64,000 nt of DNA from Spirochaeta thermophila DSM 6578 (lineage in GTDB: Bacteria > Spirochaetota > Spirochaetia > Winmispirales > Winmispiraceae), in assembly GCF_000184345.1 (NCBI RefSeq), contig NC_017583.1, positions 1,922,001 through 1,986,000 on the forward strand, in the 5' to 3' direction. Position numbers and translations under genes: made by a program. Each line of letters opens with the position of its first letter. The stretch's first letter is position 1. The notes under the pieces are model-generated. The model ran no database searches. It was not told where the DNA came from and worked only from the letters and a program-made list of their open reading frames with translations. Shown here in pieces: positions 38,798-55,451 of the stretch.

Positions 38798-39020
38798 GGG
38801 GAGCCCCCTTTCACCCAGAAAAAAGGATCCTTCCCATGCTACACAAAAAAGGACGAATGATCTATCAGCACATCCACCCCCACACCACAACAGACATCCT
38901 CACTACCACCCCCACTTCTACAACCCTCTTCCTAGCCCTTATTCATCGACACAGAACGGGATAGAGCGCCCTCTCCCTTCCCTTAGAAGGCACTCTGATC
39001 CCTCTGGACCATCTCCATAC

Positions 39021-39052
39021 AAAAACCCGACCAGGAGCTCACCTGGTCGGGT
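39021..39052 (-). terminator. Terminator of the polysaccharide-utilisation operon
   Basis: A perfect 11-bp stem (ACCCGACCAGG with CCTGGTCGGGT) followed on the minus strand by TTTTTG. It lies 29 bases after the stop of the substrate-binding protein gene. The rest of 38798-39081 shows no gene. Confidence 0.9.
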
Positions 39053-39081
39053 CCAGACATTCCGACACACACGAAGTGCAC

Positions 39082-40395
39082 TTACTCATAGTCCTCAAGA
39101 TTCTTGAGCATGTCCTCAACCTGCTTCTTTAACCGCTCCATCGCCTCCTTGGCAGTGGCCTGCCCAAGCCACACCAGTCCCAGCTCCTGCTTCCACGCCG
39201 CATCAAAAGCAGCATACATAGGATGGATAGGATCGTACATGGGGAAGAGATACTCACCTTCGAGGAAGGCGGCCTTGTTCACCCCAGGAAGCTGTTCAGG
39301 AGTGAGGAAACGAGGATCCTTTTGGAACTCAATCAAGGCAGGTGTCATAATCTGGAGACCAAGCAGCATACTCACACCACGAGCCCCAGGAGCGGCGAGG
39401 AACTTTACAAACTCCCACGCCTCTTCAGGATGCTTACTCTGGCTAGACACCACAAAACAACTTCCATCAGCCCGGTTCACCGACTTACCAGAATCGCCAA
39501 TGGGGAGAGGCGCACAATCGAAATTGATTCCTGCCTTCAGGTACGTATTCACACGCCAGTGACCTACAATCTGCATGGCCGCCTTTCCTGCGGCAAAAAG
39601 ATCACTGATATCAGCCCTCTGTTCATCGGTAGGCATCACGTTGTGAACCAACATGAGGTCAGCAATCCACTGGATGGACTCCACCACCTTGGGATCGGAA
39701 CCTGCGATGAACGTGGTAGGCTTCCGAATATCATCGAAGAGCCCGTGTCCGGTGTGGCTCCAGACGAGGAGCGGCCAGTAATTTCTGAACTGATCCACAC
39801 CAAACTGATCTGGCTGACCATCTCCATCGAAGTCCTTGGTGAGCTTCTTCGCTGTCTCAAGAAAATCGTCCCACGTCCAGCCCTTCTTAGGATAGGGCAC
39901 CCCTGCCTGATCGAAGAGATCCTTATTGTAGAAGACGACGAGCGCAGCAGTATCGATGGGAAGCCCATACACCTTTCCATTGAGCTTATAGAGATTAAGG
40001 ATCTGAGGATTATACGCAGAGAGATCAATCTTATCCCGCTTGATGAAGTCATCGAGCATCCGGATGGCACCCTTGATCGCATACGCATACGCCACATGAG
40101 TGGCAGGATAGAACACATCAGGAGCAAGACCCCCGGCCACCATGGTCTGGAGCTTTGCGTAGTACTCTGTCCCCGATCCTATATTCTCCAGCTCAACAGT
40201 GATGTGAGGATAGAGCTGCTGGAACTCCTCGATCACTGGTTTTGCCACATTGTCCACCCTCGTCTGGTCCCAACGGAGGAACCATCTCAGAGTCACAGGG
40301 CCCTCCGCCTTTGCTGTGGTGCCTTCTTTCTTTGCACAGCCTGGCACCATCAGGAGGAGCATCGCTCCCAGAAACAGAACTAGCACTCTCTTCAT
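39082..40395 (-). CDS. ABC transporter sugar-binding lipoprotein
   Basis: A 437-residue extracytoplasmic solute-binding protein (family 1). The lipoprotein signal peptide ends LLLMVPGCAKK. The mature part has PVTLRWFLRWDQ, FQQLYPHITVELENIGSG, LAPDVFYPATHVAYAYAIKG and GLPIDTAALVVFYNKDLFDQAGVPYP, all typical of oligosaccharide binders of the MalE/UgpB type. In this operon the ligand is probably an unsaturated oligouronide released by a lyase (inference). It is the last gene, separated from the permease gene by 80 bases with a palindrome that may raise its expression relative to the permeases. Confidence 0.9.
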   Translation of the reverse strand: MKRVLVLFLGAMLLLMVPGCAKKEGTTAKAEGPVTLRWFLRWDQTRVDNVAKPVIEEFQQLYPHITVELENIGSGTEYYAKLQTMVAGGLAPDVFYPATHVAYAYAIKGAIRMLDDFIKRDKIDLSAYNPQILNLYKLNGKVYGLPIDTAALVVFYNKDLFDQAGVPYPKKGWTWDDFLETAKKLTKDFDGDGQPDQFGVDQFRNYWPLLVWSHTGHGLFDDIRKPTTFIAGSDPKVVESIQWIADLMLVHNVMPTDEQRADISDLFAAGKAAMQIVGHWRVNTYLKAGINFDCAPLPIGDSGKSVNRADGSCFVVSSQSKHPEEAWEFVKFLAAPGARGVSMLLGLQIMTPALIEFQKDPRFLTPEQLPGVNKAAFLEGEYLFPMYDPIHPMYAAFDAAWKQELGLVWLGQATAKEAMERLKKQVEDMLKNLEDYE

Positions 40396-40424
40396 ACATC
40401 ACCTCCATCTCGGTGTTATTTCTA

Positions 40425-40444
40425 GTTAACCCTCAAGGGTTAAC
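40425..40444. promoter_or_regulatory. Intercistronic inverted repeat before the binding-protein gene
   Basis: GTTAACCC and GGGTTAAC face each other across four bases. It could be an RNA hairpin that protects the 3' mRNA part or a protein-binding site. It does not look like the LacI-type sites upstream. Confidence 0.6.
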
Positions 40445-40475
40445 ATTTGCCCCACTATCTACATGATCTACATGA

Positions 40476-41360
40476 TCAACCCTTTGACCCCCCAGAACCT
40501 GTGAGGGATGCCCCGCTTATGAAGTACTTCTGGGCAATAAAGAACATGATAAGGGGGGGAACCATCGCCACAGTGGCTGCAGCCATAAACAGGTTCCATT
40601 CAGTAAAGAACTCGCTTCTGAAGGCAGCAAGTCCAAGAGACACAGTGTAGTTCTTCTCTGAACTGAGATAGATGAGGGGACCCATAAAATCACGCCACAC
40701 ATTCACAAACTCGAATACCGCTACTGCACCGAGTGCAGGTCTCATCAGCGGCAATATCACACTGGTGAAAATACGAAGAGGAGAAGCCCCATCGATCTTT
40801 GCGGCCTCATCGTACTCGAGGGGGATCCCCATCAGATACTGCCGCATGAGGAAAACCGAAAAGGCACTTCCGAAGAATGTGGGCACTGTCAAAGGAAGAA
40901 AAGTATCGAGCCATCCTAACAACTTGAAAAGAATAAACCTTGGCACAATAAGGAGATTACTTGGAAGCATCATAGTACTGAGCAAGATGAAAAAGAGCAC
41001 ATTCCGTCCAGGGAACCGAAAACGAGCAAATCCATATGCCACCACACTTGAACTCAAGACCATTCCAAAGACCGCAATCCCTGCGATCAAAAAGGTATTT
41101 CTGAAGTAAATATGGAAGGGCCTGACAGTGAGGGCACGAGGGTAATTTTCCCATGCAATGGGACGAGGAATCCACGAAGGGGGAAACTCAAGGACCTGTT
41201 TGTCCGTCTTAAGAGATGTGCTCACCGTCCATGCAAAGGGGAAAAAGATCATCAGAGCCCCAAGAATAAGGAGGATGTAAATCAACACCCGAGAGAAGTA
41301 GTACAATGTCTTTTGTTCCCTTTTTTTCTTTTCCATTAATGTAGCCATAGCTGTTTCCAT
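40476..41360 (-). CDS. ABC sugar transporter permease (MalG type)
   Basis: A 294-residue inner-membrane protein with six predicted helices. The cytoplasmic EAA loop, which docks the ATPase, is EYDEAAKIDGASPLRIF. The end FFIAQKYFISGASLTGSGGSKG is common in MalG-type permeases. The ATG is at 41360, 17 bases after the stop of the partner permease. No ATPase gene lies in the operon, so a shared MsmK/UgpC-type ATPase from elsewhere is needed. Confidence 0.93.
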   Translation of the reverse strand: METAMATLMEKKKREQKTLYYFSRVLIYILLILGALMIFFPFAWTVSTSLKTDKQVLEFPPSWIPRPIAWENYPRALTVRPFHIYFRNTFLIAGIAVFGMVLSSSVVAYGFARFRFPGRNVLFFILLSTMMLPSNLLIVPRFILFKLLGWLDTFLPLTVPTFFGSAFSVFLMRQYLMGIPLEYDEAAKIDGASPLRIFTSVILPLMRPALGAVAVFEFVNVWRDFMGPLIYLSSEKNYTVSLGLAAFRSEFFTEWNLFMAAATVAMVPPLIMFFIAQKYFISGASLTGSGGSKG

Positions 41361-41377
41361 ACTATTCCTCCTCTCTG

Positions 41378-42292
41378 TTATTTCACCTCAGCTTCGTAGT
41401 AGACCCACGCTTTGGAAGAACGGAATATCAAGAGTGTAAGTGCCACTATGATGATGAACACCACCCAGGACATGGCAGCTGCATACCCCATCTGGTACTG
41501 CTGAAACGCTTTCTGGTAGAGGTAGTAGTTGAAAAAGAGGGAAGCGTTATTGGGACCACCTTCCGTCATCACATAGGCCTGCGTAAAAAGTTGAAACGTT
41601 TCAATCATACCCGTAACTAGGTGGAAAAAGATGACTGGCGTGAGCATGGGGAGGGTAATCTTCCAGAACCTCGACCACGCACTCGCGCCGTCTATGATAG
41701 CGGCCTCATACAACTCATTTGAAATACCCTGGAGTCCTGAGAGATACACAATCATGTTTCGACCTGCGGCTGCCCATACCGCCATCACCATAAGCGACGG
41801 CAGTACGAGCACAGGATCCTCCAGCCAGCTTGGCCCCTGAATTCCAAGCACCGTTTGCAGGAACCCATTGAGGACCCCATATCGAGGGTTGTAGATCCAC
41901 ATCCACATCAGTGAGATCGCTACCGGGGGAAGCACCACTGGCATATAGTACACTACCCGCCAGAACCCAAGGAGCCTCACCCGCTGATTCAAGAGCAGAG
42001 CAGTACACAAAGCAGTGAGGATCCCGAGGGGAACCCGTCCGAGGCCATACACAATGGTAACCTTCAATGACTGCCAGAAGAGAGGATCACCCAAAAGCTT
42101 CTGATAATTTCGAAACCCGATCCAGCGTGGAGTTGAGATGAGATCCCAGTTCATAAAGCTGATCACAATCACAGCCACAAGTGGACCAAGCATAAAGCAG
42201 AGGAAACCAACCAACCACGGAGAGATAAACACAAAGCCAGTAACTGCTTCAAGCTTAAAACTATTGAGCTGTGGTTTTTTTAGCAGTCTCAT
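41378..42292 (-). CDS. ABC sugar transporter permease (MalF type)
   Basis: A 304-residue inner-membrane protein with six predicted helices. The EAA loop is ELYEAAIIDGASAWSRFWKI. The N-terminal segment GFVFISPWLVGFLCFMLGPL is typical of MalF/UgpA-type permeases, as is NNASLFFNYYLYQKAFQ near the end. It starts 10 bases after the GH88 gene stop and pairs with the downstream permease to form the import channel. Confidence 0.93.
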   Translation of the reverse strand: MRLLKKPQLNSFKLEAVTGFVFISPWLVGFLCFMLGPLVAVIVISFMNWDLISTPRWIGFRNYQKLLGDPLFWQSLKVTIVYGLGRVPLGILTALCTALLLNQRVRLLGFWRVVYYMPVVLPPVAISLMWMWIYNPRYGVLNGFLQTVLGIQGPSWLEDPVLVLPSLMVMAVWAAAGRNMIVYLSGLQGISNELYEAAIIDGASAWSRFWKITLPMLTPVIFFHLVTGMIETFQLFTQAYVMTEGGPNNASLFFNYYLYQKAFQQYQMGYAAAMSWVVFIIIVALTLLIFRSSKAWVYYEAEVK

Positions 42293-42302
42293 GTCATCCT
42301 CC

Positions 42303-43466
42303 TCAGGCCTTTTTTTCTTTTACTTTAAACAAATGGGAAAGCTCGGGTCTGGAGAGACGAATGAGGGCCTCCAAGAAGTAGTAATCGCCATAGATCAATG
42401 CATGATCTTTATACCCATGAGGAACCGAACGAGAACCGTGGAGCAAAAATGCAGGAATCTCGGTATTCCGGGAAGAATAGTGCTCCCAGAGCGACCAGGT
42501 GATACGAGCAGCCCACTCTCGCCACCTATCCGTAAGAGTGGAGTCCTCTTCCACATCAGCAAGCGCAAGCAGACCACATGCAATCACCGCAGCTGCAGAC
42601 GAATCTCTGTAGGTGTTCGGGATATCAGGGGAATCAAAGTCCCAAAACGGCACAAGATCTTCAGGGAGATGTTCCAGCGTATAGGAAGCGATCTTCCTCG
42701 CTACTCCAAGGAAAGAAGGTAGCGAAGTGGCTTCATAACATGTGGCAAACCCATAGAGCGCCCATGCTTCCCCCCGAGACCAGCATGAATCATGCGCAAA
42801 TCCCTGATAGGTATCGCTCCTTATCCACACCCCTGTATCCACATCAAAATCAGCCACATGAGCAGTCGACCCATCCTTTCTTACCAGTACAAGTCGGCTC
42901 GTGCGGGCGTGTTGCGTCGCTACCTCTGCAAAGAGAGGATCCCCTGTCTGCTCGCTCGCCCAGAAGAGAAGGGCGAGATTCATCATGAGGTCAACGTTCG
43001 TTCTCCCTCTATCTTTGCGGGTTCCATCAAGTTCACCCCATGCCTGGAGGTATTCACCCCTTGGGTTGTATCTCTTCACAAGCGAGGAAGCTGCCTCTAC
43101 TGCATGAGAGTAAAGGTCCGGCTCAGCGAGAACCCTTCCTCCCAGCACGTGGGAGAGATAGAAAATGAACCCAAGGTCATGTGTGGAGGTGGAATGCTTC
43201 AGCCATCGAAGCCGTTTCGACCACTCCAGAGCCGCAGCTTTGAAGTGTTCATCCTGAGAATGGACATATGACAACCATAGAATCCCTGTCCAGAAGCCGT
43301 CCACCCAATGAGCCCGATCACCTCGTTCACGTTCTATTGTCCTCCAAGAAGGTCCATCACACGATTCTGGGAAATCTTCGAGGGTTTCGATGTTTCGTCG
43401 TGTGATCTCCAGTGTGTAGTTAAGAGGCTCCTTCCAATCCACAAAAACCTCCTCTCTCTTTGTCAT
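42303..43466 (-). CDS. Unsaturated glucuronyl hydrolase-like enzyme (GH88)
   Basis: A 387-residue enzyme with an alpha/alpha six-barrel and no signal peptide, so it is cytoplasmic. GH88 motifs: RAHWVDGFWTGILWL, STHDLGF (D97, matching Asp88 of the Bacillus enzyme), RTNVDLMMNLALLFWA (D159, matching Asp149) and SCWSRGEAWALYGFA. It removes the 4,5-unsaturated uronate that lyases leave at the non-reducing end of an oligosaccharide. Its presence suggests that the target may contain sugars besides pure uronate. Its ATG overlaps the upstream lyase stop by 4 bases. Confidence 0.88.
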   Translation of the reverse strand: MTKREEVFVDWKEPLNYTLEITRRNIETLEDFPESCDGPSWRTIERERGDRAHWVDGFWTGILWLSYVHSQDEHFKAAALEWSKRLRWLKHSTSTHDLGFIFYLSHVLGGRVLAEPDLYSHAVEAASSLVKRYNPRGEYLQAWGELDGTRKDRGRTNVDLMMNLALLFWASEQTGDPLFAEVATQHARTSRLVLVRKDGSTAHVADFDVDTGVWIRSDTYQGFAHDSCWSRGEAWALYGFATCYEATSLPSFLGVARKIASYTLEHLPEDLVPFWDFDSPDIPNTYRDSSAAAVIACGLLALADVEEDSTLTDRWREWAARITWSLWEHYSSRNTEIPAFLLHGSRSVPHGYKDHALIYGDYYFLEALIRLSRPELSHLFKVKEKKA

Positions 43467-45712
43467 TTATGTGAGCAATAAAGCTCTAAGTTGAGTTCAC
43501 CTCCAGGAAGTACAAAGCGGACAAGTGAGACATCACGAGAAAAAGAAAACTCCACCTCCTCACCATTCACCACCACCTTCTGAGGAGTCCCAGGACACCT
43601 CACGCTAAGGGAAACCTTACGTAGGCTCGTAATCTGGGCATCCAGATGCGTACTACTGCTCCATCTCCACGCTATGGAGACGGGAGGAGAGGAGATAAGC
43701 AATGGCATTCCTTTCCACCATAGCATGCTCGCGTGTACCGCAAGCCCTCTTGTCGGCACCTCTTCCTCAGAAGAGAGGGCCACACAGGAAGCATCAGTAA
43801 GCAGAAGTCCATCCACAGAGAGACCGACCCCACCCTTCCCTACCCCAATTACCCACTCTCCCCTTTTCCCGGAGAAACTCACGAGCCGACCCCGTTCTGT
43901 AGGAAGCGCCGCAGCATGTCCCTGCAAGGTAAGACTCACAAGAAACTCGGCCTCCTCCACAGGGTCAGGAGGCTCACAAAAGAGGGTATGCAACGTACGG
44001 GTAAGGACCCACTTGGGATTTGCTGAAGTGGGATTTGCGCTCACCTGCTGTTCTTTGAGAATGGATACCACAGAAGACGGATGATGGATGTGAATACCCA
44101 TCGTGCTCTTGCCTACGTGAAGCACGAACCTATCTTCACCTTCTTTAAGGGGGGGTGCATCCATCTGGAGAAGCCACTGATACCGATGGGGTACCTCAGA
44201 CCGAAGATAATCGTGTACCAGTAGCATCTCACCATCGATAAACAGCATGTCTCTCGAGACATTGTGTAATTGCAACGATCGATCGTAGGCGTTTACTGCC
44301 TCTCCTCGCACATAAAAGAGACCATCCAGACCTAACCACTCATCCAATCTCCCTCCCCAGTCAGCCCCCAATCCTTCGAATACGTTGTATCCTCCCTCCT
44401 GATACTGTCCCTTCCCATCGACAAGGAGGGTGGAGTGATACCGGGAATAGCATGTGCGATTGTACCCCTCATCCACCACCAGGTGATCATTGCCTTTCAT
44501 GAGCACAAAGGTATGCTCATCAGGATGGGCATGCCCTGCACTGATCGTATGCCATCCATACTTTCTGAACAGGGCATGTCCATAGTGCCACGGCTTATAC
44601 CCCGAGGGTTGACTGCATTTATACACCAATACGGTCGCATCACGATCCCACCCTGTACGCACAGAAGCAAGACCGAGATCCGCAAATACATGGAAGTGAG
44701 GAAGTGTCTGCACGGGTGTGGGTTCTACCATAGGATCGAACCAGAGAAACTCCAGAAATGCCTCCGGCCCTAATCCAGGCCTCACAAGCCCTTCCTGGGC
44801 CTCTCGATCCCACTCTCCTATCTCATCAAAATATGAGGCGAGCCATTGTGCATATCCATTTCTGAACAAGCTTGCGAGGCGATAGAGTACAGCCTTTGAA
44901 TGTGCGCTCCTTCTATCGTGGCAATCACCAAAGTGGGCTGTGTCCACGAGATTGGGGCCTGAAATGTAGAGCCTGAAGAAGAATGTCTTTGAGAGAAATC
45001 CTGAAAGATCCCTGAGGGCAATACCGACCTGCTCCTCAAAAAGGTGGTCGGCAATGAGGAGCCAAGGTATTCCGTAGCGCCAATAGGTGGCCCCCTCATA
45101 ATCAGAACCATCGTCAGGAAGAAGAGAAAATACGCTCTTAAAATTCTCCAGAGCAGTATCACACCATGTCTCAGCTTCAGGGGCCTCGTTCTTAAGCGCA
45201 TAGCCTGCGGTGGCAAGTCCCGCAAAACAAATCCAGTTATGATTTTGCCAAAAGTGATACGTCCAATCACCTTTTATTTCTGTCGCATACGCAAACATTC
45301 TTCGCCCCTGAAGAAGGAGCTTGGCTTTAAGTCGCGAACGCTCCTCTTCAGAAAGCTCAGCCCCAAGCCAGTTGTACACCAGGCCAAGACCAAACAAAAG
45401 CCAGGCAGCATCAAGGTCATGATCAGGCTTTCTATGCTTCCCCCAGTGAGGATAGTGGATGACAACATCCATCCACTGTCGAAGCGCAGAAAGAAATCGT
45501 TCATCCTCACTCAAAAGATAGGCAAGGGCAAGATTGGCCACCGCAGCCCCGGTATAGGTAATTGAATCATCAGGATGTTCTTCAGGGGGACGAGAGGTGA
45601 GATACCCACTCACATGATCTAGAAGGTGCTGGTACTGACGTTTATGAGTGGAGCGAGCAAGAGAACGCCACTCCTGAAGGCTCTTCCTCTTAAGCAACAA
45701 GTGCTCACTCAT
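43463..45712 (-). CDS. Heparinase II/III-like oligosaccharide lyase (first of two)
   Basis: A 749-residue protein without signal peptide, so it acts on imported oligosaccharides. The N-terminal half is an alpha/alpha toroid and the C-terminal half a beta-sandwich, the layout of PL15, PL17 and PL21 lyases. Candidate catalytic residues are H158 in WQNHNWICF, Y205 in DGSDYEGATYW and the His group in SAGHAHPDEHTFVL (H394, H396, H400). The family makes 4,5-unsaturated uronates by beta-elimination. Oligoalginate is the likely substrate from context, not proven. I chose the ATG of MSEHLLL, which overlaps the upstream lyase by 8 bases and has GAAGGGAG. Confidence 0.8.
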   Translation of the reverse strand: MSEHLLLKRKSLQEWRSLARSTHKRQYQHLLDHVSGYLTSRPPEEHPDDSITYTGAAVANLALAYLLSEDERFLSALRQWMDVVIHYPHWGKHRKPDHDLDAAWLLFGLGLVYNWLGAELSEEERSRLKAKLLLQGRRMFAYATEIKGDWTYHFWQNHNWICFAGLATAGYALKNEAPEAETWCDTALENFKSVFSLLPDDGSDYEGATYWRYGIPWLLIADHLFEEQVGIALRDLSGFLSKTFFFRLYISGPNLVDTAHFGDCHDRRSAHSKAVLYRLASLFRNGYAQWLASYFDEIGEWDREAQEGLVRPGLGPEAFLEFLWFDPMVEPTPVQTLPHFHVFADLGLASVRTGWDRDATVLVYKCSQPSGYKPWHYGHALFRKYGWHTISAGHAHPDEHTFVLMKGNDHLVVDEGYNRTCYSRYHSTLLVDGKGQYQEGGYNVFEGLGADWGGRLDEWLGLDGLFYVRGEAVNAYDRSLQLHNVSRDMLFIDGEMLLVHDYLRSEVPHRYQWLLQMDAPPLKEGEDRFVLHVGKSTMGIHIHHPSSVVSILKEQQVSANPTSANPKWVLTRTLHTLFCEPPDPVEEAEFLVSLTLQGHAAALPTERGRLVSFSGKRGEWVIGVGKGGVGLSVDGLLLTDASCVALSSEEEVPTRGLAVHASMLWWKGMPLLISSPPVSIAWRWSSSTHLDAQITSLRKVSLSVRCPGTPQKVVVNGEEVEFSFSRDVSLVRFVLPGGELNLELYCSHK

Positions 45713-47606
45713 CTCCCTTCTCCTCACCGTATGAAGCCTCAAATCGAACGTCTCGACCTTCACAACAGAGGATAAGAACCTCTCGCTGCCCAAGGTAGTG
45801 AGAGGCGTGAGGAGGTGTTTTTCCCACTAACACCTCAAAGGGCACAGAAGCACCCACCTCTACCTTGTATCGCACACTGTCTCTCACAGTACACGCCGAG
45901 AGAGGCTCATTACTCTTTCCCCTCCGAGCACTCACTTCTACAAATAGATCAGGAGGAGCTGTTCCAAGATGTTCTGAGGGAACCTCAGTCACCCCATCTA
46001 TCTCCCATGTTCCATCCAAGAAGAGTACCCACCACAGAGAGTGTTCCTGTTCAGAAGAGACACTCATCACATCGAGCACAGCAGAGTCATGGAACGCGAT
46101 CGACCTCTTCACAAAAACGCCCTCATACAACTTATCAGAGGCAACAGAAACCCCATCCTCTTCTTCTGAGAACACACAACAGGAACTCAGGATAGCTTGA
46201 GAGGTACCATCCACAACGAGCACGTTATGAGCAAGGGAATGCTGATACCAGTCTTTCCGGGACCTTCCCCCATAGGGGAGCGTCCCTGGATCTGTAGACC
46301 ACGGCCATATAGAGAGGGATAGTCGGTCATGATGAGTATGGGAGCCCCCATCGGGTCCATACACAAGGGTCACTACGTGGGAAGCTCGAGTGGGTCTTAG
46401 GGTGGCAATTCCGCTATCCGGCAACACAGAGGTCCTGAGAGGAGGAGCCTCCTTCCCATCAATTGGGTCTTTTGCATACAGTACCGCAGCCCACTCTCCC
46501 CGGGAGCATCCGCGCCTCCTGTAAGCTGAGGCGAGCAACCACCCGTACCCCGGCTCTCCAAAACGCGAATAGCCTATCTCATACACCTCACACAGCTCAC
46601 GATCCAGAATACTTCCTTTCCAGTATCCACCCCCATCCCAATACGCCCCATCATTTAAAAAGGGAAGGCTTCCATCGGGATACGCAAGAGAAAGGGTTGC
46701 ATCCATCATTGCCCGAATATTCTGCCCCTCAGGAGCCGTGTATCGATAAAGATCTATCCCATTCCCAAGAGCTGCTTCAGCCAGGAGCACATATGCGAGT
46801 ACTACAAAATTGTGGTAGTACACCGATCCTTCATACTCAAAACCATCAGGTCTCACCGCAAGGGAAAGGTGGTGATAAAATCCTCCTTCCCCCTCAATCG
46901 CCCGACGAACGAGCTCATCCGACTCCAACAGGAACCCGACACACCCCAGTGCTGCATTGAGCCAGGCGGTGTAGTTGCTCTCCACCCTACCCTGACGGAT
47001 CAACTCCTCATGGGCAACCTTAAACGTCTCGGCCATAGGCACAAGTAAATGCCCATAAAGGGACCGCTTTTCTGCGGTCCCAATATGAGCATCGAGGAGG
47101 GTAATAGCATGCATCACAGGGATAGCCCAGAGGGCCTCGGTGAGAGCCTGATGAAAGGCCCTCCCCCTCAGCATCCATGCCTGGGCTGCCTCACCAGCAT
47201 TAAACGTAGCATACAATTCTGCATACCGCCTCAGGAGCGTGAGCGCAGCATCAGCAAAACGGGTATCATCAAACACCAACGCACCCAGCGCAAGATCACG
47301 GAGGTCATCACCGAGTTCCCTATGTCTCAAAGCCCTCCAAGCAGCATGCACCTCAGGACCACCCACGTTATGCCCGTGGGGACAGCGATACACTTCTTTC
47401 TGCTCGGTCTCATACACGAGAGGGAGCCAGTGCTCTTCACAGATAAACTGGTGCATCCACCCGCCAGGGGCACTCGGCACCTCAAGGGAGGTCTCCAGCA
47501 CACGCTCACAGCGATCACTAAAACTTTGAATAACGTGTGCTCGCCACCCCTCTGCGTGGCTCTGTGCTGTCACCCATTCCCAGTCCAGATGCCCCAACAG
47601 CTTCAT
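45705..47606 (-). CDS. Heparinase II/III-like oligosaccharide lyase (PL15-like)
   Basis: A 633-residue cytoplasmic protein. The N-terminal region with GGWMHQFICEEHWLPLVYE, YRCPHGH and AAWRALRHRE resembles PL15-type exolytic oligoalginate lyases. It appears to be a degenerate Cys-rich element: many relatives have CP-C-G pairs here. The toroid has ESNYTAWLNAALGC (Asn-Tyr where the other lyase has Asn-His) and DGFEYEGSVYY (Y258). The sandwich has GPDGGSHTHHDRLSL (H423, H425, H426). The start at 47606 is chosen for the AGGAGAAGG just before it; an ATG seven codons earlier overlaps the SDR gene. Confidence 0.8.
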   Translation of the reverse strand: MKLLGHLDWEWVTAQSHAEGWRAHVIQSFSDRCERVLETSLEVPSAPGGWMHQFICEEHWLPLVYETEQKEVYRCPHGHNVGGPEVHAAWRALRHRELGDDLRDLALGALVFDDTRFADAALTLLRRYAELYATFNAGEAAQAWMLRGRAFHQALTEALWAIPVMHAITLLDAHIGTAEKRSLYGHLLVPMAETFKVAHEELIRQGRVESNYTAWLNAALGCVGFLLESDELVRRAIEGEGGFYHHLSLAVRPDGFEYEGSVYYHNFVVLAYVLLAEAALGNGIDLYRYTAPEGQNIRAMMDATLSLAYPDGSLPFLNDGAYWDGGGYWKGSILDRELCEVYEIGYSRFGEPGYGWLLASAYRRRGCSRGEWAAVLYAKDPIDGKEAPPLRTSVLPDSGIATLRPTRASHVVTLVYGPDGGSHTHHDRLSLSIWPWSTDPGTLPYGGRSRKDWYQHSLAHNVLVVDGTSQAILSSCCVFSEEEDGVSVASDKLYEGVFVKRSIAFHDSAVLDVMSVSSEQEHSLWWVLFLDGTWEIDGVTEVPSEHLGTAPPDLFVEVSARRGKSNEPLSACTVRDSVRYKVEVGASVPFEVLVGKTPPHASHYLGQREVLILCCEGRDVRFEASYGEEKGDE

Positions 47607-47614
47607 GCCTTCTC

Positions 47615-48376
47615 CTATACGAACCATGATCCACCATTTATCTCAGCAACCTGTCCCGTGACCCATGAGCCCAAATCAGACACAAAGTAGAGCACAGCAC
47701 CCGCTACATCCCGCGGAGTACCTGCCCGTTTCAGAGGAATCCGCTGGATGATATCCTCATACTTCTCCCGACCTGTAAAGGTCTCATGGAATGGAGTGTC
47801 CACAATAAATCCAGGAGCAAGCGCATTCACCGTAATATTTCGAGGAGCGAGCTCTTTTGCGAGCCCTCTTGTAAAGCCAAGGATTCCTGCCTTTGCAGCA
47901 GCATACGCCACAGCTCCATTTCCTCCACCATTCCTCGCAGCAAGGGAAGCCATATTCACGATACGTCCTCCCTCAGGGATGAAAGGAAGAGCAGCCCTTG
48001 TCACATAGAAATTGCTACTCAGGTTGGTATGGATCACCTTATGCCAGTGCTCATCAGACATCTCTGCTACGTTCACCCTGCCTATGAGATGTCCCGCATT
48101 ATTGACTAAGATATCGATTCTTCCCCCAAGTACCTCAGCCACATCCTTTACCACCTTTGCCACTTCATCACTTTTAGTGGCATCGAGTTGGAACACATAG
48201 ACCTCACCACCCTTCGCCCTGATGTCTGATGCGGTCTTCTCCGCATCTTCGCGATGGGAATAGTACGTAATAGCAACCTTTGCCCCGCACTCTGCGAGCG
48301 CCTTCGCAATCCCTGCTCCAATCCCTACGCCTGCCCCTGTCACAAGCGCTGTTTTGTTCGAAAGATCGAGCTTCAT
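47615..48376 (-). CDS. Short-chain dehydrogenase, probable unsaturated-uronate (DEH) reductase
   Basis: A 253-residue classical SDR. The cofactor motif is VTGAGVGIGAGIA, then NNAGHLIG, the catalytic Ser in VNMASLAA, and YAAAKAGILGFTRGLA (Tyr and Lys). The end GQVAEINGGSWFV is typical. In alginate-using bacteria an SDR reduces the open-chain product of lyases (DEH) to 2-keto-3-deoxygluconate, and the place of this gene between the regulator and two lyases suggests that role. The sequence alone only shows a reductase. GGAGGGTTAG precedes the ATG. Confidence 0.85.
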   Translation of the reverse strand: MKLDLSNKTALVTGAGVGIGAGIAKALAECGAKVAITYYSHREDAEKTASDIRAKGGEVYVFQLDATKSDEVAKVVKDVAEVLGGRIDILVNNAGHLIGRVNVAEMSDEHWHKVIHTNLSSNFYVTRAALPFIPEGGRIVNMASLAARNGGGNGAVAYAAAKAGILGFTRGLAKELAPRNITVNALAPGFIVDTPFHETFTGREKYEDIIQRIPLKRAGTPRDVAGAVLYFVSDLGSWVTGQVAEINGGSWFV

Positions 48377-48393
48377 CTAACCCTCCATATAGT

Positions 48394-49446
48394 TTAATAT
48401 TTAGGCTCAGCCGTAGATCGGCGCACTATTAACTCAGGAGGGAACATGTAATACTGCCCCTCTCTGACCTCTTTACCTTCCAATCTGTTGAGAAGTAACT
48501 CCACTGCTTTTGAGGCAAGGAGAGGAATAGGCTGACGAACAGTTGTAAGGGGAGGCTCTACGATCTCAGCAAGTTCAATATCATCGAACCCCACCACAGA
48601 AAGATCCTGAGGGATAGAAACTCCCAACTCCTTTGCCCCGGCATAAACCCCAAGGGCAAACATATCGTTCACAGTCACAATACCGGTAGGGCGCTCTGAG
48701 CGAGTAAGAAGCTGATAGGCAGCCTGTTTCCCTAACTGGATAGCATTAAAATCACCAAACCCTTCTACCGTCTCCCCTTGCCATATCAGGGAAGGATCCT
48801 CTTCAACGCCTGCATCCCTGAGCGCCTGTTCATACCCCGTGAGACGATCGAGGCGGTTCACCGTGCGAATAGAACCTGAGACAAACGCAATACGCCTGTG
48901 CCCCAAGCCCAACAGGTGTCTGGTCGCTATGTACACTCCCTGTCTGTTATCCACACCAACTCCATCAAACTGTACATGCTCACTATTCGTTAAAGACCTA
49001 TCAAAGGTGACCAGACACAACCCTTCTTTCGCCAAATCAGAGAGATACGAGATATCCGCAAGGGAACTACCAAACACAATCCCCCGTACTCCATATGCAA
49101 CCAACTCTTCAGCAAACTCGCGTTCTCGTTCCGGATCACGACAGCAATTCCCCAACAGCACATGAAACCCTCTTTTAGCAGCCTCCACCTCTACATGGTG
49201 GGCAAATGTTCCATAAAATGGGTTTGCTACCGAGGGAACGACCAGCCCAATAAAAGGGGCACTCCCTGTCTTGAGCTGGCGTGCTACCGGATTTGGACGA
49301 TAATTCAACTCTTCGATAGCCTGTTTAATACGATTTCGTGTTTTATCCTTGATGAGATTCATTCGCCCATTGAGATAATTAGAGACAGTACTCACAGAAA
49401 CCCCTGCTCTTCGAGCCACATCAACGATAGTAACCCGCTCCTTCAC
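48394..49446 (-). CDS. LacI-family transcriptional regulator of the polysaccharide locus
   Basis: A 350-residue repressor. The N-terminal helix-turn-helix with hinge is VTIVDVARRAGVSVSTVSNYLNGR followed by NRIKQAIEELNYRPNPVARQL. The rest is a periplasmic-binding-protein-like ligand domain (IGLVVPSVANPFYGTFAHHVE, FDDIELAEIVEPPLTTVRQP). GTG at 49446 is chosen because GGAGGG lies 4 bases upstream; GTG at 49458 is the alternative. It is the first gene of the operon and divergent from the lyase gene, with LacI-like operators between, so it probably controls both directions and itself in answer to a lyase product. Confidence 0.9.
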   Translation of the reverse strand: MKERVTIVDVARRAGVSVSTVSNYLNGRMNLIKDKTRNRIKQAIEELNYRPNPVARQLKTGSAPFIGLVVPSVANPFYGTFAHHVEVEAAKRGFHVLLGNCCRDPEREREFAEELVAYGVRGIVFGSSLADISYLSDLAKEGLCLVTFDRSLTNSEHVQFDGVGVDNRQGVYIATRHLLGLGHRRIAFVSGSIRTVNRLDRLTGYEQALRDAGVEEDPSLIWQGETVEGFGDFNAIQLGKQAAYQLLTRSERPTGIVTVNDMFALGVYAGAKELGVSIPQDLSVVGFDDIELAEIVEPPLTTVRQPIPLLASKAVELLLNRLEGKEVREGQYYMFPPELIVRRSTAEPKY

Positions 49447-49485
49447 TTTACCCTCCACTTGTTCACTATCATCGCTTTTCGCAAA

Positions 49486-49499
49486 TTAAAACGTTACAA
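49486..49499. promoter_or_regulatory. LacI-type operator candidate 1
   Basis: TTAAAACGTTACAA, sharing the AAACGTT core with the site over the lyase promoter. It lies about 40 bases before the regulator start. Confidence 0.45.
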
Positions 49500-49725
49500 A
49501 TAATGTATCATAGATTTCCCTAGCTGTCAAGCCCTGATATACATCTTCACGTTTCCATTTAATTACTTGTCGTCGTTATTACTCAATTTCATCTATAAAG
49601 AAAACAAATATATTCATTTTTATCCTTTATAAAATAAAAAATAGTTAACCAAAGTATGATATGGTTTATAAATATTAAAACCTAATCGTTCGAACAAAAA
49701 TCTTAAAATCTTGAACAAAAAACAA

Positions 49726-49754
49726 TTGACATTTCATATATCAGATGCTACTAT
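49726..49754 (+). promoter_or_regulatory. PL7 lyase promoter
   Basis: TTGACA and TACTAT with exactly 17 bases between. The predicted start, near 49761, lies inside operator candidate 2. Confidence 0.8.
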
Positions 49755-49775
49755 TGATGAAACGTTTTAATCAAT
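49753..49775. promoter_or_regulatory. LacI-type operator candidate 2, over the lyase transcription start
   Basis: Arms ATTGAT and ATCAAT surround the core AAACGTTT in a near-palindrome. Binding here would block RNA polymerase. Confidence 0.6.
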
Positions 49776-49790
49776 ATGAGGAGGTTTTCT

Positions 49791-50776
49791 ATGAACCGTC
49801 TCCTTTATATATTTCTCCTCCTCTCCACTGGGTTTCTTCTTTCGGCCCAGGGAAGTAAGGAACAGCCTCTCCTGTCCCCGGCTGACATCGCCGACCTCTC
49901 CACATGGAAACTCCAGCTTCCTGTTGCCTCAGAGAGCGGTACCTCTGTGAAAGAGGTGTACCCTGAGGAGTTAAAAAAGGGCTACCAAGACGAATTCTTC
50001 TATCTCGATCCGGACTCAAAAGCCGTGGTCTTTCGCTCCCCCATCAAAGGTTTTACTACCCCTAACACCACGTATACACGATGCGAGCTGAGAGAACTGA
50101 TCGACGGGGTTCACGAAACAACTAACTGGGGCTTTACCGGTACCCATGTGATGACGGTCACCGAATCAGTGGAAAAACTACCCACAAGTGGGCGGATAAT
50201 CGTCGCTCAAATCCACTCCATCTATCCAAATGGGGATAACGGACCTGCAACTATAAAAGTAGTGTATGATGGAACAACAAAAGAAATTGAAACCAGAGTT
50301 AAAGTAGAGGCCTCTCTGTCTGCAGGAGAAAAGAAATTCTACTTTTCCAACGTAGAACTTGGTCAACAATTTGAAGTGACACTTAAGATCATCGATGGGG
50401 TTTTCTACGCGTACATCTCCTCCGAAGGTAGGACAAAGGCATTCAGTTATGACTTACTGGGCACAGATCCCAATTGGACCACTTATCTCAATTACTTTAA
50501 AGTCGGTTGCTATGTCCAAGATGATAAAGAAGATTACGTGGGAGAAGAAGGTATAGTAAAAATTTACGCGCTTACCACCTTTCACTCTGATAAATCAGAG
50601 CCGATTGCTCTTAAAGCCCTTAAAATTGAGCCAGAAGAAGTAAAAGTAGAAGCAGGAAGTATCCTACAACTTTCACCTGTATTCATTCCTATAGAGACCA
50701 CGGAAAAAGATGTAAGGTTTGAAATAGTGAAAGGTCGTGATGTTGCGTCAGTAGATAGAAAAGGAAATGTTATATA
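49791..50776 (+). pseudogene. PL7 alginate lyase gene, 5' fragment (signal peptide and catalytic domain kept)
   Basis: The first piece of a lyase gene broken by two IS elements. It starts at ATG 49791 after GAGGAGG. Residues 1-19 are a signal peptide (YIFLLLSTGFLLSA). The PL7 domain spans about 28-265 with all three signatures: RCELRE (97-102), QIH (140-142) and YFKVGCYVQ (235-243). A Big_2 Ig-like domain begins at 275 (LKIEPEEVKVEAGSILQLSP) and is cut at residue 328. Reading continues four codons into the IS and stops at 50789, giving a 332-residue product. The PL7 domain looks complete, so the fragment could still make a secreted endolyase. Codon use is A+T-rich, unlike the genome. Confidence 0.88.
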
Positions 50777-50844
50777 CTGCGTCCCGTAGGAGTGGACACG
50801 GAGAAATGGTAGAGGTAAGACTGGAATAAGGGAGGAGGACGCAG

Positions 50845-51129
50845 ATGAAGAAGCGGACATGGACCACTGAAGAGAAACTTGCGATCGTCCTGGAAGGACT
50901 CCGAGGCGAACGGCAGATCGCCGAGATCTGCCGGGAACACCAGATCAGCCAGACGATGTACTACCGATGGCGGGACAGGTTTCTGGAAGGGGGCACGAGA
51001 GCCCTTGCAGACGGCAGGAAGGAGAAGGACACCTATCGAGCGAAGATAGAGCAGCTTGAGAAGATCATAGCGAAGCAGGCGATCCAGATCGAGATACTAA
51101 AAAAAACGAAGGAGCTGTTGGGGAGGTAG
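50845..51129 (+). CDS. IS3-family transposase OrfA (copy 1)
   Basis: A 94-residue protein with a helix-turn-helix (KLAIVLEGLRGERQIAEICREHQISQTMYYRWRDRF) that would bind the element ends, followed by a leucine-zipper-like coiled coil (YRAKIEQLEKIIAKQAIQIEILKKTKELL). GGGAGGAGG precedes the ATG. The final part holds eight A residues where ribosomes can slip into the orfB frame. Confidence 0.92.
   Translation: MKKRTWTTEEKLAIVLEGLRGERQIAEICREHQISQTMYYRWRDRFLEGGTRALADGRKEKDTYRAKIEQLEKIIAKQAIQIEILKKTKELLGR
51099..51106 (+). other. Probable -1 ribosomal frameshift site of the IS
   Basis: A run of eight A residues in codons CTA AAA AAA ACG. The -1 frame is open from here into orfB, as is usual for IS3 elements, giving an OrfAB transposase. 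The same run is at 54581-54588 in copy 2. Confidence 0.7.
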
Positions 51130-51134
51130 AGGCA

Positions 51135-52001
51135 GTGGAGCGGCTGGTGGGGGAAGGGTATCGGGTGAAGGATGCGTGTGAGGCGTTTGGCGTGAGTCGG
51201 AGCCGGTACTATGCGAGGAGGAAAAGGGGGCAGAAGGTGGGGAAGAAGCGGGAGGAGAAGGAGAGGGACGATGGGCGGCTTATGGAGAAGATCAGGGATC
51301 TTGTGGGGGAGCATCCGTACTGGGGGTACAGGCGGGTGGCGTGGTGGTTGAGGAGGCGGGAGGGGGAGGAGGTGAGCGAGAAGCGGGTGAGAGGACTTAT
51401 GAAGGGTGCGGGGCTTATGTGTAGACGGGAGAAGAAGAAAGCGAGACGTGGGAGTGGGCGAGGGAAGCCGGTGGCGAGGAGACCGAGGGAGTGGTGGGGG
51501 ATCGACATGACGAAGGTGCTGGTGAAAGGGATAGGATGGGTCTATCTCGTGATCGTACTTGACTGGTACACGAAGAAGCTGGTGGGGTGGAAGGTGTCGG
51601 TGAGGGGGAGGAGTGAGGAGTGGTGTGCGGCGATGGAGATGGCGGTGGAGCGGGAGTTTCCCGAGGGGGTGAGGGGGAGAGGGCTTCGGCTGGTGAGTGA
51701 CAACGGGAGCCAACCGTTGAGCCGGTCGTTCATGAAGGCGATGGAGGTATTGGGGATCGAACAGGTGTTCACGAGCTACAACAATCCGAAGGGGAATGCG
51801 GACACGGAGCGGATGATACGGACGATGAAGGAGGAGCTGTTGTGGCTGCGGGAGTGGGAGCACGTGGGGGAGCTGGAGGAGGCGGTGAGGGGATGGGCGG
51901 AGGAGTACAACCAGCACTATGTCCACAGTGCGCTAGGGTACAGGAGCCCCGAGGAATATGAGGCCCTTTGGGCGCAGATGCAAGGAGAGGAGGTCGCATG
52001 A
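51135..52001 (+). CDS. IS3-family transposase OrfB, DDE integrase domain (copy 1)
   Basis: A 288-residue protein. After a helical HTH_21-like part (IRDLVGEHPYWGYRRVAWWLRRR) comes the retroviral-integrase-like core: WWGIDMTKV (first Asp), RLVSDNGSQPLS (second Asp) and NPKGNADTERMIRTMKEE (Glu). All three catalytic residues are kept. The reading frame is -1 to orfA, so it is probably made as a fusion by frameshifting, although a GTG at 51135 could start it alone. Confidence 0.93.
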   Translation: MERLVGEGYRVKDACEAFGVSRSRYYARRKRGQKVGKKREEKERDDGRLMEKIRDLVGEHPYWGYRRVAWWLRRREGEEVSEKRVRGLMKGAGLMCRREKKKARRGSGRGKPVARRPREWWGIDMTKVLVKGIGWVYLVIVLDWYTKKLVGWKVSVRGRSEEWCAAMEMAVEREFPEGVRGRGLRLVSDNGSQPLSRSFMKAMEVLGIEQVFTSYNNPKGNADTERMIRTMKEELLWLREWEHVGELEEAVRGWAEEYNQHYVHSALGYRSPEEYEALWAQMQGEEVA

Positions 52002-52058
52002 CCCCTTTCGGTACTACCATTTCTCCCTACCCTTTTTGTCTTGACTTAATGGGCGCAG

Positions 52059-53628
52059 TACAGTTACCGGCATTAAAGAAGGAGAAGCCATTGTTCGAAT
52101 TGTAAGCGTCAGTAACCCTGATATTTCTGCAGAGGGCCGAATCATAGTCATCCCTCCAGGGGAAAAAGAAGCAGAAATTCTCTATAGTCAGGACTTTGAA
52201 AACATCACAAAAGATGCACCGGAGTTTGATTTTTCCATAGTAGGTTCTACCACCAGGGTAGAAATTGAAGATGGATCACTTCGCATCAGAGACAATGACC
52301 CACAGGGGAAAGGCATCTTTACACTTTACTTTCCTCCCCAAAGGGATACTACTACTATCTCATTTAAGATCAGACTCGACAGAGTGGATGTGAAGGAAAA
52401 AGGCACAAGCAAAGCTCAAGGCTCTTATGTGTATGTGGTGATGGGAGGGAAAGAGGGACTGCTCTCTTCAAGCGAAGAGATGTTCCGAATAAGAAATGCT
52501 TCCACCTATCGGGCCGGCTCTCTCTCTGAGCACCGATGGGTGCTCTCACACGAGTACAAGACACCTGAACTTAATCCAGAAGCTGCTCGTGTCTCTCTTG
52601 GAGAGTGGACAGAAATCACCATTATCACCACTCCAGACAATGGGACTGCAAGTGCAAATACTACTGACGTCTACATAAATGGGATACAGGTTGCCCGAAG
52701 GTTCCCCAATAATAAGCAAAGTAAATACATCAATCAAATTGAATTCTACTCTGGAACCAAGGATCTTCTCGATTTCAGCGTAGACGATATAGCAATATAC
52801 AAAGGACCACGCCTCCCTGAAGGAGTGGTGCTCCCCCCACCAGAAAAAATCATGCTCTCCCCTCTGCCGCATTATATGGCCGTAGGAGATGCAACCCACA
52901 TTATGCCTCAGGTGCTCCCTGAGGGGACTGACGAGCGTCTTATCTACACATCCCTTACTCCTGACGTGGTTGTAGTAAGTAGAGAAGGACTTGTTACCGC
53001 CACAGGAGAAGGAACGGGCAAGATCGTAATTTCCAGTGAGAGAGACCCCGCTGTCTGGACAGAATACGAGGTCCGTGTGCTTTCAGAAGAGAAGATTGTT
53101 CGAGTACAGGAATTAAGCTTTGCTAAAGAGCAATACGCGGTACGGGTAGGAGAACACCTAAAACTCGAACCTCAGATTCTCCCTGAGGATGCCACAGAAA
53201 AGGGCATCCGTTATGAACTCGTTGAGGGAAAAGGAATTTTCTCTATACGTCCGGAGGGAATAGTGACCGGACTCACGCCTGGGATAGGAACGGTGAGAGC
53301 CATTAGCCTCGATAATGAGGATATCTCTAGCACCTGTACTATCAAAGTGCTGTCCAATCGGCCTGGTGGGAGTATCATCTACGAAAATCACTTTGCTTCT
53401 GAAAATCTCGAGGATGCGTGGACAACCTCTTTTGCTAATAACACAGAATGTACGATAAAAGATGGGGCACTGTATCTTAAGGATAACAATCCCGGTGGAC
53501 AACCAAAGGCGTACATCTCGTTTGAGCCACAAGCAGATACCTTTACCGTAGAGTTCAGGCTCAAAGTAGACTCTGATCAAGTGTATCAAGAGACAAAGGT
53601 CTCTGCGGTCACATGCGGTATCGGTGTA
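52059..53628 (+). pseudogene. Lyase gene, middle fragment (Ig-like and jelly-roll domains)
   Basis: The second piece of the split lyase gene, about 523 codons, in the same orientation as the first. It begins TVTGIKEGEAIVRIV, the rest of the Big_2 domain cut by copy 1. A LamG/concanavalin-like jelly roll follows (ILYSQDFENITKDAPEF to VDDIAIYKGP), then two more Big_2-like domains (KIMLSPLPHYMAVGDATHI; ELSFAKEQYAVRVGEHLKL) and the start of a second jelly roll (IIYENHFASENLEDAWTTSF). No start signal is visible, so it is probably not translated. The domains would have been carbohydrate-binding or spacer modules. Confidence 0.85.
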
Positions 53629-53685
53629 CTGCGCCCATTAAGTCAAGACAAAAAGGGTAGGGAGAAATGGTAGTACCGAAAGGGG

Positions 53686-54552
53686 TCATGCGACCTCCTC
53701 TCCTTGCATCTGCGCCCAAAGGGCCTCATATTCCTCGGGGCTCCTGTACCCTAGCGCACTGTGGACATAGTGCTGGTTGTACTCCTCCGCCCATCCCCTC
53801 ACCGCCTCCTCCAGCTCCCCCACGTGCTCCCACTCCCGCAGCCACAACAGCTCCTCCTTCATCGTCCGTATCATCCGCTCCGTGTCCGCATTCCCCTTCG
53901 GATTGTTGTAGCTCGTGAACACCTGTTCGATCCCCAATACCTCCATCGCCTTCATGAACGACCGGCTCAACGGTTGGCTCCCGTTGTCACTCACCAGCCG
54001 AAGCCCTCTCCCCCTCACCCCCTCGGGAAACTCCCGCTCCACCGCCATCTCCATCGCCACACACCACTCCTCACTCCTCCCCCTCACCGACACCTTCCAC
54101 CCCACCAGCTTCTTCGTGTACCAGTCAAGTACGATCACGAGATAGACCCATCCTATCCCTTTCACCAGCACCTTCGTCATGTCGATCCCCCACCACTCCC
54201 TCGGTCTCCTCGCCACCGGCTTCCCTCGCCCACTCCCACGTCTCGCTTTCTTCTTCTCCCGTCTACACATAAGCCCCGCACCCTTCATAAGTCCTCTCAC
54301 CCGCTTCTCGCTCACCTCCTCCCCCTCCCGCCTCCTCAACCACCACGCCACCCGCCTGTACCCCCAGTACGGATGCTCCCCCACAAGATCCCTGATCTTC
54401 TCCATAAGCCGCCCATCGTCCCTCTCCTTCTCCTCCCGCTTCTTCCCCACCTTCTGCCCCCTTTTCCTCCTCGCATAGTACCGGCTCCGACTCACGCCAA
54501 GTGCCTCACACGCATCCTTCACCCGGTACCCTTCCCCCACCAGCCGCTCCAC
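53686..54552 (-). CDS. IS3-family transposase OrfB (copy 2)
   Basis: A 288-residue protein like the copy 1 OrfB except Phe to Leu in CEALGVSR and Ala to Val in EEWCVAME. The DDE residues are intact, so the element looks active or recently active. Confidence 0.93.
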   Translation of the reverse strand: MERLVGEGYRVKDACEALGVSRSRYYARRKRGQKVGKKREEKERDDGRLMEKIRDLVGEHPYWGYRRVAWWLRRREGEEVSEKRVRGLMKGAGLMCRREKKKARRGSGRGKPVARRPREWWGIDMTKVLVKGIGWVYLVIVLDWYTKKLVGWKVSVRGRSEEWCVAMEMAVEREFPEGVRGRGLRLVSDNGSQPLSRSFMKAMEVLGIEQVFTSYNNPKGNADTERMIRTMKEELLWLREWEHVGELEEAVRGWAEEYNQHYVHSALGYRSPEEYEALWAQMQGEEVA

Positions 54553-54557
54553 TGCCT

Positions 54558-54842
54558 CTATCTCCCCAACAGCTCCTTCGTTTTTTTTAGTATCTCGATC
54601 TGGATCGCCTGCTTCGCTATGATCTTCTCAAGCTGCTCTATCTTCGCTCGATAGGTGTCCTTCTCCTTCCTGCCGTCTGCAAGGGCTCTCGTGCCCCCTT
54701 CCAGAAACCTGTCCCGCCATCGGTAGTACATCGTCTGGCTGATCTGGTGTTCCCGGCAGATCTCGGCGATCTGCCGTTCGCCTCGGAGTCCTTCCAGGAC
54801 GATCGCAAGTTTCTCTTCAGTGGTCCATGTCCGCTTCTTCAT
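54558..54842 (-). CDS. IS3-family transposase OrfA (copy 2)
   Basis: A 94-residue protein identical to the copy 1 OrfA, with the same eight-A slippery run at its 3' end. Confidence 0.92.
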   Translation of the reverse strand: MKKRTWTTEEKLAIVLEGLRGERQIAEICREHQISQTMYYRWRDRFLEGGTRALADGRKEKDTYRAKIEQLEKIIAKQAIQIEILKKTKELLGR

Positions 54843-54910
54843 CTGCGTCCTCCTCCCTTATTCCAGTCTTACCTCTACCATTTCTCCGTGTCCACTCCTA
54901 CGGGACGCAG

Positions 54911-55293
54911 TATACGGGTCGGGGAAAATCACTTCCATGGCAAACGAGGCCTTCCGGTTTAAAACCTCTGGCAAAGTGGAAAATGGGACAGTAGTAGATC
55001 GCTATTTCATCTACAGTAAAGGGGTAGGAGAATCAGGTTACAACAGAATAGCCGGCACATACTCATTGGGGGAATGGTATACCATAGCCTTCACCCTCAC
55101 CCCAGATAATGGCTCGCCGCGAGCGAACACTGTGGATATCTACATCAATGGGGAAAAGGTCATCTCAGGAACTCCCCTTAAAAAGATATCACCCTCTATC
55201 GATAAACTGATCTTTCAAACAGGCACAAAGGATCTCACCACGTATTGGATCGATGACTTCGTCATATGGAGTGGAGACTATACTGATCGTTAG
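54911..55293 (+). pseudogene. Lyase gene, 3' fragment (end of second jelly-roll domain)
   Basis: The last piece of the split lyase gene, about 127 codons to the stop. It completes the second jelly roll: VYGSGKITSMANEAFRF, then SLGEWYTIAFTLTPDNGSPR, VDIYINGEKVIS and YWIDDFVIWSGDY. These closely parallel the first jelly roll (LGEWTEITIITTPDNG, VDIAIYKGP), so the two modules arose by duplication. No start of its own is supported. Confidence 0.85.
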
Positions 55294-55318
55294 AGGAATT
55301 CCCCCTCACATCATTTTT

Positions 55319-55363
55319 AATGAATGGAGGGGAGATGCCTTCCTTATCTCCCCTCCATTCATT
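55319..55363 (+). terminator. Long hairpin after the lyase gene
   Basis: A perfect 18-bp stem from 55319-55336 to 55346-55363 with a 9-base loop. The T run is weak (ATCTTA), so it may be a terminator or an mRNA 3'-end stabiliser. Confidence 0.6.
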
Positions 55364-55451
55364 ATCTTAACCAATATCGGTTGATTTGCCTTCACTATCT
55401 CTTTATACTCACAAAAAAGAGGGGACTCTCTTACGGGAGGAGGGGACAATC

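Follow-up and report, generated by a model that had tools for sequence, protein, structure and literature searches.

Within the 64,000-nucleotide window of the Spirochaeta thermophila DSM 6578 genome analyzed here, a gene for a secreted, multidomain PL7 alginate lyase lies in three same-strand pieces separated by two copies of an IS3-family insertion sequence (coordinates are those of the window unless another locus is named). The 5' fragment (49791-50789, + strand) encodes a signal peptide, a complete PL7 domain (Alginate_lyase2), and the start of a Big_2 domain, and it runs to a stop codon inside the insertion sequence, giving 332 amino acids. The middle fragment (52067-53624, + strand) contains the rest of this first Big_2 domain, a jelly roll, two more Big_2 domains, and the start of a second jelly roll, and the 3' fragment (54918-55293, + strand) completes the second jelly roll and includes the native stop codon; all three fragments read without breaks. 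Copy 1 of the insertion sequence (50773-52062, + strand; orfA, 50845-51129; orfB, 51135-52001) and copy 2 (53625-54914, - strand; orfA, 54842-54558; orfB, 54552-53686) are each 1290 bp long. Upstream of the PL7 gene, the promoter-like hexamers TTGACA-17-TACTAT (49726-49754, + strand) match the consensus, with such matches no more numerous in the region than expected by chance, and a pattern scan located an operator-like palindrome, ATTGATGAAACGTTTTAATCAAT, immediately ahead of the ribosome-binding site (49753-49775, + strand), which may be the operator of the divergent LacI-type regulator.

Each copy is bordered by its own target duplication, GTTA for copy 1 (left, 50769-50772; right, 52063-52066) and CGG for copy 2 (left, 53622-53624; right, 54915-54917). 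Removal of 1290 plus 4 bases and of 1290 plus 3 bases joins the pieces into one open frame of 971 codons, in the order signal peptide, PL7, Big_2, jelly roll, two Big_2 domains, and jelly roll, with the protein reading ...RKGNV/TGIKEG... and ...VTCGIG/SGKITS... at the two junctions (slashes). An earlier note on this DNA had recognized the three pieces, in the same orientation, as one multidomain PL7 gene, and the 971-residue frame, colinear with the two homologues described below, bears this out. It had also seen that the same element is present in opposite directions, but the length given, 1282 bp, was too short, the outer TATA... and ...TACA having been taken as flank plus TA. The outer bases TATACTGCG (left) and GCAGTACA (right) recur in full copies at unrelated genome sites and thus belong to the element; an element of 1282 bp flanked by a TA duplication was rejected because full copies share these bases. 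Removing copy 2 together with one TA does restore the frame, as had been stated, but the real duplication is CGG, and 1284 and the correct 1293 are both multiples of three. The one-base shift reported at copy 1 disappears when the correct 1294 bases are removed; since the 4-bp duplication explains the shift, a later one-base change at this junction was also rejected.

A scan of the genome collection with the fragment alone yielded no relatives; a scan with a two-row alignment yielded two. The only full-length match among 60 related genomes is in a genome of the same family (G002; L021 9553-12558), where a single open frame without stops is 57% identical over residues 19-972 and has the same domain order over its full length; it differs in containing no insertion sequence and in lying apart from the alginate operon, on another contig. 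An uninterrupted homologue, which the earlier note had proposed to seek in a second strain, exists in this same-family genome, and the sister genome (G001) lacks the whole region. A second homologue shares this architecture, with 43% identity over residues 28-970, and comes from a Lachnospiraceae metagenome-assembled genome (MAG; contig label, Lachnoclostridium phytofermentans MAG). Its first jelly roll contains a single in-frame TAA (L035 3393-3395), which may mark another broken gene of this kind or a sequencing mistake, and one more jelly roll is present at the end of the gene. The alignment is gap-free across the junctions in both relatives, the G002 protein reading ...KDGIITAIKEG... and ...VTCGIGSEKVTS..., so that the three pieces constitute one gene with no later change at either junction. 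The pieces are joined in both relatives, not carried as the separate genes that the earlier note had named as a refutation, and the split is thus the derived state. To judge from these alignments, the three annotated gene fragments represent one ancestral gene. The literature searched yielded no case of a PL7 gene broken by an insertion sequence.

The S. thermophila genome (G000) is a single contig of 2,560,222 bases, and the sister genome comprises 2,472,645 bases. The sister matches the window at approximately 95% identity on both sides of positions 38793-55440, and this segment, an alginate-use island, is missing from it. The genes upstream of the PL7 gene lie on the opposite strand and specify LacI, SDR, PL17-like lyase, heparinase-like, and GH88-like proteins and an ABC transporter; together with the PL7 gene they make up the island. 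In G002, these eight genes occur in the same order with 49 to 84% identity. A PL17 sequence has been reported from S. thermophila (PMC9530828), in keeping with the PL17-like gene at 45705-47627. The GC content of the island is 0.40 to 0.51, compared with 0.62 to 0.64 in the surroundings, which suggests that it was gained rather than lost, and we infer that it was horizontally acquired.

The genome contains nine full-length copies of the insertion sequence. OrfB matches the IS3 transposase model NF033516 with 217 bits (cutoff, 160), and family matches (rve, HTH_21, and HTH_Tnp_1) place a helix-turn-helix (HTH) in OrfA and the integrase/DDE core in OrfB. Duplications are 4 bp long in six of the nine full copies, 3 bp in one (copy 2), and absent in two; their sequences (GTTA, GGTA, CCG, ATGG, CTAA, GCGG, and CCCC) follow no consensus. 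The terminal inverted repeats expected of the family end in 5'-TG...CA-3'; the right terminus here, ...TACA, agrees with this, and the left terminus, TATACTGCG, begins with TA in all full copies. A run of A residues at the orfA/orfB overlap (near 51100 in copy 1) varies in length: with A8, present in three full copies including both in the PL7 gene, orfB is in the -1 frame relative to orfA at CTAAAAAAAACG; with A7, present in five, orfB is in the +1 frame; and with A6, present in one (L006), orfA and orfB are fused in a 384-amino-acid frame. Copies within one genome would thus need different recoding or slippage to produce transposase. The last 36 to 38 bp of the right end also stand alone at four places in the genome (L037 967-1003 and 2779-2814, L038 1692-1728, and L039 6132-6169), at least three of which adjoin a transposase-like frame resembling the IS256/Mutator type, as if an IS256/Mutator-like element repeatedly came to lie at one position in the IS3 terminus.

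Copies 1 and 2 are near-perfect inverted copies that differ at five positions, and the nearest relative of each is found elsewhere in the genome: copy 1 differs from the copy at L002 at three positions and copy 2 from that at L003 at two. Barring gene conversion, they derive from different donors, in agreement with the independence of the two hits proposed earlier. The five differences and the different nearest copies disfavor duplication of one insertion into the other, and a net inversion of the 1562-bp middle piece by recombination between the inverted copies was rejected, as both copies still have matching duplications of their own. No full copy of the element occurs in the sister genome, which has just 125 bp at 90% identity, so the element probably increased in number within this lineage and inserted here recently; the absence of breaks in the reading of the three fragments is in line with this. 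On these comparisons, the two insertions are independent and recent. Judged by reading the translations, the copies at L003, L005, L006, and L008 lie within or beside transposase genes that belong to other families and that at L002 lies near a restriction-subunit-like frame. By the same reading, the copy at L007 (1501-2790) interrupts a gene for a phytoene-desaturase-like FAD oxidoreductase near its N-terminal glycine-rich motif, and the rejoined frame is open.

We are confident that an intact 971-codon modular PL7 gene on a presumably acquired island was hit twice by the IS3-family element, probably under relaxed constraint. A horizontally acquired alginate-use island would have brought in the intact gene for the secreted, modular lyase, into which the multicopy element then inserted twice, from two different donor copies, duplicating 3 to 4 bp of the target. 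Copy 1 brings translation to an end within the first Big_2 domain, and what follows of the gene is a remnant with neither start signals nor a signal peptide of its own; the likely outcome is loss of the noncatalytic C-terminal two thirds, with a minimal PL7 enzyme possibly still secreted. In simulations, uniform insertion placed two of nine copies in one 2.9-kb gene in 2% of runs, and the chance of a double hit rises to between 5 and 19% if insertion-tolerant DNA makes up 10 to 40% of the genome (0.25 to 1 Mb), so neither target preference nor selection needs to be invoked. Selection against the full-length enzyme, which the earlier note had listed among the possibilities suggested by the two hits, is not supported by them; relaxed selection, which it had also named, is the plainest reading of the state of this gene on a strain-specific, low-GC island, and the double hit would reflect relaxed constraint on an accessory gene. 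The case is one of ordinary genome decay, in which an accessory gene is disrupted by a multiplying insertion sequence, and is of a familiar kind.

Copy 1 cut downstream of the catalytic domain, a point that the earlier note had not made, leaving the start codon, signal peptide, and whole PL7 domain, and the 5' fragment matches PF08787 with 168.7 bits (cutoff, 29.7) over profile positions 2-225 of 225. R97, Q140, H142, and Y241 align with the catalytic Arg, Gln, His, and Tyr residues of A1-II', two of which are named by the H191 and Y284 mutants among the structure matches; they lie in the motifs RxELRE, QIH, and YFKxGxYxQ and are invariant in four homologues. A predicted model of the fragment has a mean pLDDT of 63.7 (moderate confidence), with residues 271-332, the Big_2 stub, below 50, and its best PDB matches are all PL7 lyases (TM score of 0.79 by target length). 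A minimal secreted lyase could therefore still be made from the 332 residues; the truncated product could be unstable or degraded, given the low-confidence tail of the model. Removal of both CBM32 modules from another PL7 enzyme raised catalytic efficiency 4.25-fold, and truncation of AlyQ lowered it (PMC9102848); the former result indicates that such modules can be dispensable for the function of a PL7 domain. It is conceivable, though we lean against it, that copy 1 trimmed the enzyme rather than killing it, leaving in place of a large modular lyase a single-domain PL7 enzyme that is secreted and whose binding, range, or diffusion is altered. The insertion sequence would then have acted as a remover of domains and not as a breaker of genes, a role that we put forward tentatively.

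It is rather improbable that the insertions were favored for having abolished an extracellular enzyme that is shared and costly, the cell retaining uptake and oligoalginate breakdown and living on oligomers released by its neighbors. Such scavenging has been proposed for vibrios that possess oligoalginate lyases (Oal) only, and these Oal-only vibrios grow on oligomers only (PMC5036157). The intact downstream pathway (PL17-like lyase, SDR, ABC transporter, and GH88-like protein), in an order kept in G002, is compatible with such a life-style, as is a profile search of the whole genome, which found no further PF08787 (PL7) or PF14592 (PL6-type) lyase. However, the catalytic domain and all catalytic residues persist in frame with a start codon and signal peptide, and the other full copies lie mostly inside other mobile elements, as neutral accumulation predicts. 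The strain would either degrade alginate by means of a trimmed enzyme or be a user of oligomers, and the sequence accommodates both.

A preference of the element for the PL7 gene or for sites near its own copies, suggested by the earlier note on the strength of the two hits, is improbable: the 2% figure for uniform insertion speaks for it, but the duplications share no sequence, copies 1 and 2 are not mutual nearest relatives, and the double hit is less unusual when tolerant DNA is limited. Misplacement of repeat copies into one gene during assembly is conceivable where both interruptions are long, near-identical repeats but is very improbable in a single-contig genome in which the copies have distinct single-nucleotide differences, each is flanked by its own duplication, and the frames join exactly, features that misassembly is not expected to yield.

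The locus warns that gene lists by themselves do not suffice to call this strain an alginate degrader or nondegrader. The trimmed enzyme, if active, would provide a natural test of the role of the Ig-like and jelly-roll modules in PL7 enzymes and a naturally truncated candidate enzyme from a probable thermophile.

The remaining catalytic fragment can be compared with A1-II' of Sphingomonas sp. A1 (PDB 2cws and 2z42), which it matches over residues 26-267 (E value of 1.3e-45) and with which it shares the PL7 fold and the conserved Arg, Gln, His, and Tyr residues; the A1-II' structures consist of a single domain, whereas the gene described here also encoded Ig-like and jelly-roll modules, approximately 700 residues in all, that are now cut off. 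The element that severed them belongs to the IS3 family and is possibly IS150-like in subgroup. It resembles family members such as IS150 and IS1447, the latter with 3- to 4-bp duplications and first annotated in the IS150 subgroup (PMC6211511), in the HTH of OrfA, the integrase core of OrfB, the A-run at their overlap, and duplications of 3 to 4 bp. It differs from these in a left end that reads TATA rather than TG and in an A-run that varies among A8, A7, and A6 within one genome, so that the frame relation of orfA to orfB differs from copy to copy.
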